This document shows, in pieces, positions 5,920 to 43,262 of a DNA stretch of 64,000 nucleotides; the first letter of the stretch is position 1; every line of letters begins with the position of its first letter. The notes under the pieces are model-generated. The model saw only the letters and a list, made by a program, of their open reading frames with translations. It made no database searches and was not told the origin of the DNA. The translations under genes and the position numbers were made by a program. Source of the stretch: Acetomicrobium thermoterrenum DSM 13490 (GTDB lineage Bacteria; Synergistota; Synergistia; Synergistales; Acetomicrobiaceae). The stretch lies in assembly GCF_900107215.1 (NCBI RefSeq), contig NZ_FNPD01000003.1, positions 124,001 to 188,000 on the forward strand. Reading direction: 5' to 3'.

Positions 5920-6645
5920 TTACTTCGTGTTATCTGGCGATAAAAATCCCCACTTCGTCCAAATAGGAAAAGACCTTTCGGAACGACAGAAAATCCAAAA
6001 TTTGCGGACCTCCTCATTGGCTCTAATAGTGAGACCCCCCACTTGATCGACAGTCATTCCGGATAGAGGAGTATAATTGCCGCCTGCTTTTATGGCCATG
6101 CTGAGAGGAATAAACGCTATCTCGGCAGCACTTCCTTTCGCCGCGACGACAGCCTGCGGTGCATTGCCAACTAAAATAATCCTCTTTTCAGCCATCATTT
6201 TATCCCATAATCCTGCCTCATCAAGATATTGCTTTGCCAGGTTTCCATAAGCTGTTATATCGGGATTTGGCACGGCTATTTTGGACTTTTCAATATCGCT
6301 CTCACATGGAGCCTCCGAAGAAAAACGCCACATCACCAATTGCCCTATGGCAAAGGCGTGAACGTCGACTAGCATTCCCTTGGCCTTTAACCATTTTGGC
6401 CATCTGGGCTCGGAAGCCAAAAACATATCATATGGCGCACCCATCGCTATCTTATTTGCCAAAGGACCACATGCTTCCTTTACAAATTCCATTTTTTCTC
6501 CTCCAGCCTCGACATAAGCCTCCATCACCTCTTCAACGCAGGGAGCTATGCCAGCTGCAACGGCAACCACATTAGCCATAACTGGTGCACACCATATTGA
6601 CAGGACGCACATGATAATTACAAAAACTCTAACAGCTCGTTTCAA
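5920..6645 (-). CDS. ModA-like periplasmic substrate-binding protein with altered ligand residues
   Basis: A 241-residue protein with an N-terminal hydrophobic signal segment (about residues 4-24) that ends near ANVVA. The fold is that of molybdate-binding ModA: GAPYDMFLASE, a segment KIAVPNPDITAYGN matching the ModA PxxxxYG pattern, and a late IAFIPLS. However, the serines that hold the oxyanion in ModA are replaced by other residues (AAGIAPC and EACGPL where ModA has AAAS and SSST), and the C-terminal ligand tyrosine is not evident. No modB or modC is next to it; a DUF364 gene follows. It may be a binding protein for another oxyanion or metal species. Confidence 0.72.
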   Translation of the reverse strand: MKRAVRVFVIIMCVLSIWCAPVMANVVAVAAGIAPCVEEVMEAYVEAGGEKMEFVKEACGPLANKIAMGAPYDMFLASEPRWPKWLKAKGMLVDVHAFAIGQLVMWRFSSEAPCESDIEKSKIAVPNPDITAYGNLAKQYLDEAGLWDKMMAEKRIILVGNAPQAVVAAKGSAAEIAFIPLSMAIKAGGNYTPLSGMTVDQVGGLTIRANEEVRKFWIFCRSERSFPIWTKWGFLSPDNTK

Positions 6646-6691
6646 TTGATTTACCCCCTCTTATATCGAATGGGACACGTGCTTGTATAGT

Positions 6692-41667: not shown

Positions 41668-41671
41668 TTAT

Positions 41672-42008
41672 TTCGAGCATTCCATAAGCCGGGTTCTGTG
41701 ATATTGATGACCATTTATCTTGGGATGAGCTCGCGCCCATCCTCTAGCGATCAACCCGGAGGTCAGCGGGCCACCTCATCCCTCCCTATTAGATCTTGCT
41801 CCAAGCGGGGTTTGCCTGGCTCATTGGTCGCCCAATGACCGGTGGGCTCTTACTCCACCTTTTCACCCTTACTCCAAATGGGAGCGGTATCTTTCTGTGG
41901 CACTATCCCGAGGCTCGCGCCTGCTGGACGTTATCCAGCGCTTTGCCCTGTGGAGCCCGGACTTTCCTCGTTCTATCCCAGGAACGCGGTCACCCGGAAT
42001 GCTCGAAG
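41672..42008 (-). ncRNA. rnpB: RNase P RNA, bacterial type A
   Basis: About 337 bases. The hallmark GAGGAAAGTCCGGGCTC lies near the 5' end on the minus strand (about 41953-41969), and the 3' part has the conserved ACAGAACCCGGCTTAT (about 41685-41700). P1 is visible as GGAATGCTCG (41996-42005 in plus sense) pairing with CGAGCATTCC (41674-41683). It cleaves the 5' leader from precursor tRNAs. Ends are set from P1 and are accurate to a few bases. Several open frames within it are spurious. Confidence 0.95.
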
Positions 42009-42062: not shown

Positions 42063-42090
42063 ATAACATTGGCTTTTAGGGAGGGTTCTT

Positions 42091-42551
42091 ATGGAAACGC
42101 AGTTTTCGCCAATGCCCGGATACGATGAATTCAAAAATAAAGTTAAGTCGCTAATGAACATTGAACTGGACGCCTATAAACAGCAAATTCACCGACGGGT
42201 CCATATGTTAATGCAGCGTTGGGAATGTTCCAATTATGAAAAATATTTCGAAATACTGAAAAAAGATCCGGAAAAACGAAAGGAGTTTTTGGACTACCTC
42301 GCAATCAATGTGTCTGAATTTTTTAGAAATCCATCAATATGGTGGCATTTGCGAGACAAGGTTTTGCCGGTGTTAATAAAGGAGAAAGGAAGACGTCTTA
42401 AAATGCAGAAACTAAGAAAACTTTGTATCAGAAGTTCGTCAAGGCTCTACGTCCGGGAGGTATAATGATGGTTGGTGCCACTGAGCATATTTACGATTAT
42501 CGCAGCCTCGATTTGGAGCCCCTGGGACAATTTTTATATAGGAGAAAATAA
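42091..42551 (+). pseudogene. cheR: cheR chemotaxis methyltransferase, internal deletion and frame change
   Basis: The first ~104 codons match the N-terminal helical domain of CheR (QQIHRRVHMLMQRW, YLAINVSEFFRNP). Then, near 42402-42412, the frame jumps: in another frame the sequence continues as TLYQKFVKALRPGG, MMVGATEHIYD and ends LYRRK at 42551, the CheR C-terminus. The whole SAM-binding core between them (about 120 residues, including the GxGxxxGEE motif) is missing. The intact reading frame stops at 42465. The gene is thus a remnant and cannot methylate chemoreceptors. Confidence 0.82.
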
Positions 42552-42629: not shown

Positions 42630-43262
42630 TTAGTGGGATCTGACTATTTCCTTTATCCGCATTAACCTGCTTAAGTTAGATCGTTCCATTTCGTCTAATC
42701 TCATAGTTATATCCCTTATTGTTTCCTCAAAGGCCGGGATCATAACATATTCGAGGGCATTAACCCTTCTGCGTGTACGTTCTATTTCGCTGGCCATCAA
42801 CCGTAATGCCTTCTCTTCGCTGGCAAGGCGTATCAAGTCGGGGAGCAGTTCCTGAAATTGTTCCAACGCCAAATCCAGGCTGCCGGATGTCATGGCAAAG
42901 CCGTAACCTTTCACATGTTCTTCAGCTTTGTCTATTGTATATTCGGGAACCACGACGCTCATAAGGTTGCGAGTCTTTACATGAACGCCTGTTTCTCTGC
43001 CACCAGCCATTAATAAAGATTGCTCCAGCACGGCCGGCACCATTTGGGCACGCGCCATCAGAAAGCTTCGATAACAGGCGAAAATGGCCGCTTCCACTTT
43101 CTCGCGCAAATCCTTTACATCTCTTGCTTTCTGCAAGAATTGCTTTATTAATGCATCCTGCTTGTCTTTTAATAATTTATGTCCTCTTTTTGCGGCCGCA
43201 AGACGCCTCTTGATGACGTTTAGCATCATCCTGTTGGGATTGACGTTCAATTTATTGGCCAA
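42630..43262 (-). CDS. atpD: V-type ATP synthase subunit D
   Basis: A 210-residue central-stalk subunit. Long coiled-coil helices with the family start NVNPNRMMLNVIKRRLAAAKRGHKLLKDKQDAL and the C-terminal TRRRVNALEYVMIPAFEETIRDI. It links A3B3 to the membrane rotor. TTG start at 43262, nine bases after GGAG. Last gene of the operon, followed by a strong terminator. Confidence 0.95.
   Translation of the reverse strand: MANKLNVNPNRMMLNVIKRRLAAAKRGHKLLKDKQDALIKQFLQKARDVKDLREKVEAAIFACYRSFLMARAQMVPAVLEQSLLMAGGRETGVHVKTRNLMSVVVPEYTIDKAEEHVKGYGFAMTSGSLDLALEQFQELLPDLIRLASEEKALRLMASEIERTRRRVNALEYVMIPAFEETIRDITMRLDEMERSNLSRLMRIKEIVRSH

Follow-up and report, generated by a model that had tools for sequence, protein, structure and literature searches.

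Between the RNase P RNA gene rnpB and a downstream gene that we take to encode a V-type ATPase subunit D-like protein, Acetomicrobium thermoterrenum DSM 13490 carries a chemotaxis methyltransferase gene, cheR, that lacks its middle. The locus raises the question of whether this gene is dead and, if so, whether it was lost through redundancy or through the loss of motility. The window analysed here is a stretch of 64,000 nucleotides (C3:124001-188000) within a 21-contig draft genome of 1.97 Mb, which is 99.95% complete. The window's genome (G000) is set against a Synergistaceae MAG (G001), UBA3949 (G002), UBA5826 (G003), G004 and Acetomicrobium hydrogeniformans OS1 (G041). With completeness of 80-89% in G002, G003 and G001, single absences in these three genomes are weak evidence. 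As read from these comparisons of sequence, the remnant is very probably a dead cheR, broken by one 337-bp deletion in a strain that is devoid of flagella and of most of the chemotaxis pathway.

Structure of the cheR remnant

In OS1, UBA5826 and UBA3949, a contig scan locates an intact cheR flanked by rnpB on one side and V-type ATPase genes on the other. The open frame at this locus comprises 265 aa in each of the three genomes and 266 aa in the Synergistaceae MAG, and that of G004 is intact as well. The preliminary description named relatives with the same short two-part arrangement as evidence against it; the frame is intact in all five compared (four other Acetomicrobium genomes and OS1). 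Aligned to the intact relatives, positions 42091-42551 of the window (plus strand) correspond to cheR with a single internal deletion, and the remnant is thus real and correctly placed by the preliminary description, with one gap against each of OS1, UBA5826 and UBA3949. The remnant measures 461 bp and the intact gene 798 bp, giving a deletion of 337 bp, or 112 1/3 codons. The features of the locus are listed in Table 1.

Table 1. Coordinates of the features at the cheR locus (window positions) and of the affected receptor genes (positions within the named loci).
Feature	Position	Strand	Basis and remarks
rnpB (RNase P RNA, class A), upstream neighbour of cheR	41670..42005	-	Rfam RF00010, 293.4 bits; conserved
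GGGAGGG stretch 5' of the ATG	42079..42085	+	Sequence and alignment; unchanged relative to intact relatives
5' remnant open frame, 124 aa	42091..42465	+	105 native residues and 19 frame-shifted residues; stop at 42465
Deletion junction, 2-bp 'TG' overlap	42404..42406	+	Alignment to relatives
3' remnant, CheR residues 218-265 and stop codon	42405..42551	+	Alignment; frame differs from that of the 5' part
V-type ATPase subunit D-like gene (presumed label), downstream neighbour of cheR	42630..43262	-	Open frame; synteny conserved
OS1 receptor genes broken or removed in G000	L048 (G000:C4) 6124-6673; L105 (G000:C4:165000-176026)		Comparison with OS1

The two ends of CheR had been described as recognisable and lying in different frames, and both points are borne out by the alignment to intact relatives. 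Residues 1-105 and 218-265 of the 265-residue protein are kept, residues 106-217 are missing, and since 337 is not divisible by three, the two parts are read in different frames. The native portion of the 5' part (42091-42405) comprises CheR_N and the first stretch of the SAM domain, and the part matches Pfam CheR_N (PF03705) with 35.5 bits (E 8.4e-09, cut-off 27). The 3' part matches Pfam CheR (PF01739) weakly, over positions 152-180 of 195; its 18.6 bits (E 0.0013) fall short of the cut-off, 27. Protein identity to OS1 CheR at the same locus is 95-98% on either side of the gap, which together with the single gap excludes a chance match. The core is indeed lost, although its size, earlier put at about 120 residues, is reduced by measurement to 112 1/3 codons. 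The claim that the core was precisely removed does not hold, as the cut ignores the domain borders: the Pfam CheR domain covers residues 73-247 of the intact protein whereas the gap spans 106-217, so that pieces of the SAM domain are left on both sides of the deletion. The WSAGSATGEEAYS stretch, presumably the SAM-binding motif I of CheR, is among the residues lost. Neither the uninterrupted reading frame nor the SAM-binding domain of a CheR methyltransferase is therefore found, and despite the likeness of its ends (PF03705 and PF01739) to those of OS1 CheR, the remnant, its SAM domain shortened by 112 1/3 codons, is not a working CheR.

Beyond the deletion, the remnant contains no further stops or frameshifts. 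The GGGAGGG stretch upstream of the ATG is likely to be a ribosome-binding site, a role suggested by its position and sequence. Changes found only in the window amount to four synonymous and three non-synonymous ones in the remnant, a small sample for a selection test, and three of the five in the 5' part alter the protein. The 2-bp overlap at the junction is uninformative on mechanism, since randomly placed breakpoints with this spacing would show an overlap of that length in about 14% of cases.

In the surrounding stretch of about 15.9 kb, DNA identity is 96.9% to both UBA5826 and UBA3949 and 96.3% to OS1, and the similarity of the remnant to the relatives is about that of the neighbouring genes. 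The deletion had also been called probably recent, which is supported in a relative sense only, in that cheR is intact in the three nearest genomes examined and the remnant has diverged from them about as much as the genes next to it. Among the 68 OS1 open frames of at least 100 aa in the stretch matching the window, 62 have a match, the other six lying beyond the window ends. Eight of the 62 are flagged, and a large internal loss is seen only in cheR. Of the remaining seven, one is truncated by the window edge, one is shifted close to its end and one meets a stop three residues early; two owe their flag to a start extension, one runs antisense to rnpB and one lies over a tRNA cluster. Separately, the match to a 128-aa open frame of OS1 at 6305-6645 of the window is split between two reading frames, with an overlap at 6346-6391, reflecting a small indel or duplication between strains. 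An rnpB-matching stretch lies near cheR in 15 of the 30 CheR loci compared, drawn from a survey of 41 genomes, indicating that the pairing of cheR with rnpB is old and stands apart from the flagellar operon.

Chemotaxis and motility genes in the genome

A second cheR that would make the remnant redundant is not found by a genome-wide search, which gives no CheR match in the window's genome at E <= 0.001; the suggestion of redundancy in chemotaxis is thereby set aside. Among the 41 genomes surveyed (its own and 40 relatives), CheR is matched in 28 and in none of the other 13, the window's own included, so that absence of CheR is common in this order.

The partners of CheR were counted in six genomes, given here in the order OS1, G004, UBA3949, UBA5826 and G001 after the window's own. 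CheB has no match in the window's genome (1, 1, 1, 0 and 0 in the others), Flagellin_N none (2, 2, 1, 0 and 1) and Flg_bb_rod none (5, 4, 5, 1 and 3), while the CheW domain is matched twice (3, 3, 3, 1 and 2). The two CheW frames of the window's genome are 172 and 329 aa long and neither has the size of CheA; CheA-sized CheW frames (685-696 aa) occur only in OS1, UBA3949 and G004 among the six. The receptor signalling domain yields three matches in the window's genome, one in a 715-aa frame and two in the halves of one broken gene, compared with eight matches in seven genes of OS1. The erosion of chemotaxis is thus incomplete, with a pair of CheW-domain genes and a single full-length receptor gene surviving.

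The loss of chemotaxis proposed at the outset is supported by these searches, with no other CheR, no CheB, no flagellin, no rod or hook protein and no CheA-sized CheW frame in the genome, and with the main flagellar-chemotaxis operon cleanly deleted. An intact orthologue at the same place, the lack of a second copy, and partner genes lost or broken are among the features looked for in a pseudogene produced by motility loss, and each of these three is found here. Comparison of the genomes accordingly favours no second-copy account: it supports motility loss, rather than redundancy, as the probable cause of the decay of cheR.

Deletions in the flagellar and receptor gene clusters

In OS1, a flagellar-chemotaxis operon of 33.6 kb sits between codY and an S1-domain gene. 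We take it to contain flgB through fliA-like genes together with cheA, cheB, cheC and cheD, the gene names in the OS1 flagellar clusters being our assignments from the look of the translations. The 20-kb core of this operon matches OS1, G004 and UBA3949, with no match in G000, UBA5826 and G001 (three of the six genomes), in a DNA search run with positive controls, as an empty DNA answer without a control shows nothing. The flanks of the operon adjoin each other in both the window's genome (G000:C14) and UBA5826 (G003:C8). The net loss, 33,623 bp, is identical in the two, which also share another loss, of 179 bp. The same junction next to codY can be seen at L075 (G000:C14:1-10500) and L076 (G003:C8:12500-26500).

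A second cluster, containing flgK-, flgL- and flagellin-like genes, is gone from G000 and UBA5826 with an identical net loss of 11,613 bp. The cuts in the nearby flgF-flgJ region are not the same in both, with net losses of 3,796 and 465 bp in G000 against 3,067 and 349 bp in UBA5826, and a 9-bp direct repeat, GTCGCCTCC, is visible in the sequences at one flgF-flgI junction of G000. The flagellar and receptor deletions are sized by net loss only; junction overlaps are not used there, because single mismatches shorten the exact extension. Two receptor genes of OS1 are affected in G000: the one of 682 aa lacks 1,047 bp there, and the one of 278 aa has disappeared with a net loss of 1,635 bp. Numerous copies of a sequence of 25-49 bp (L077, 13284-13332) occur on either strand in G000:C5, in G003:C20 and in other Acetomicrobium genomes, and this sequence is also present at the end of the flagellin-cluster deletion.

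In the Synergistaceae MAG, codY adjoins the far flank of the operon on G001:C163, leaving a Flg_bb_rod-matching stub (a 34-aa frame; L063, 3222-3293), as seen on one 3,494-bp contig of this MAG. Retention of this flgB stub means that the end points of the loss differ, and in this more distant relative the operon seems to have been lost independently of its loss in G000 and UBA5826.

Proposed order of the losses and relation to known systems

The deletions and their distribution suggest a stepwise dismantling. A common ancestor with UBA5826, or a recombination donor, would have lost the 33.6-kb operon and the 11.6-kb flgK/flagellin cluster, leaving CheR, alone beside rnpB, without CheA, CheB or a motor to serve. 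Selection on cheR would then have relaxed until a random deletion broke the gene in the lineage of the window, leaving a fragment that presumably does nothing, while the other leftovers (the flgF-flgJ region and two receptor genes) would have been cut by separate deletions. UBA5826, which has both large deletions yet an intact cheR, indicates that cheR broke after the machinery was gone, and this is the most likely order given the genomes compared.

The reverse order, in which cheR was deleted first and alone and the flagellar deletions reached the lineage later by recombination, is improbable, though it draws on the mosaic character of these genomes, with regional values of identity to OS1 between 96% and 99.6%. 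At L098 862-12033 (G000:C1:102861-114032), before flgF, identity to OS1 is 99.6%, compared with about 96% in the window. This difference marks the window's genome as a mosaic, probably produced by recombination within the species; the operon deletion may accordingly have come by recombination after that of cheR, blurring the order of loss. Against this order, UBA5826 combines an intact cheR with the two large deletions, which have the same net lengths and break points, and the separate cutting of the leftovers in G000 and UBA5826 fits an operon lost first.

An assembly or sequencing artefact, in which an intact cheR would have been disrupted by a misjoined contig, has very little probability even in a 21-contig draft. 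The junction is internal to a contig of 250,344 bases, and a misjoin driven by repeats would need more than the 2 bp common to its flanks; of the four direct-repeat pairs in intact cheR, none connects the two sites, and many other motility genes are missing as well. It is slightly less credible still that the 124-aa N-terminal product is kept as a functional protein, for example for receptor binding without methylation, since the retained start codon and GGGAGGG stretch and the above-cut-off CheR_N score are set against 19 final residues that are out of frame, protein-altering changes among those confined to the window, a short form in none of the five relatives, and the failure to find CheB, a CheA-sized frame or flagella as partners.

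A dead cheR, stranded by the loss of motility, is otherwise an instance of ordinary decay, in which the order of losses is mildly interesting. It offers a clean, small example of the dismantling of motility, with shared large operon deletions followed by separate small ones in the stranded genes, and it shows that an intact cheR alone, as in UBA5826, is not evidence that a genome encodes chemotaxis. At least two losses of the operon would have occurred among the six genomes (in the G000/UBA5826 pair, and in G001 with its flgB stub). As a tentative extension that we regard as rather unlikely, Acetomicrobium might repeatedly and independently drop the same flagellar-chemotaxis operon, from codY to the S1-domain gene, with life in oil reservoirs or digesters possibly favouring the loss and orphans such as cheR then decaying in a reproducible order.

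OS1, which by kinship label belongs to the same species as the window's genome and has the same gene order around cheR, is reported to be motile in wet mounts and to bear polar flagella, and its genome to contain chemotaxis genes along with a full inventory of flagellar ones (PMC6025917), whereas our searches found no such set of flagellar and chemotaxis genes in the window's genome. The published description of A. mobile is of a motile organism that has a single lateral flagellum (PMC3739175). The motility of these two organisms makes it likely that motility is the ancestral state in Acetomicrobium and its loss derived. No account of motility loss within Acetomicrobium was found in the literature searched, although one may still be in print.

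In conclusion, the locus can be placed beside the many non-motile bacteria in which pseudogenes arising from the loss of flagella and chemotaxis are known. It resembles them in that deletions ranging widely in size have taken out or disrupted genes serving the lost function, and differs in that the shared large operon deletions can here be separated from the later, lineage-specific small ones.
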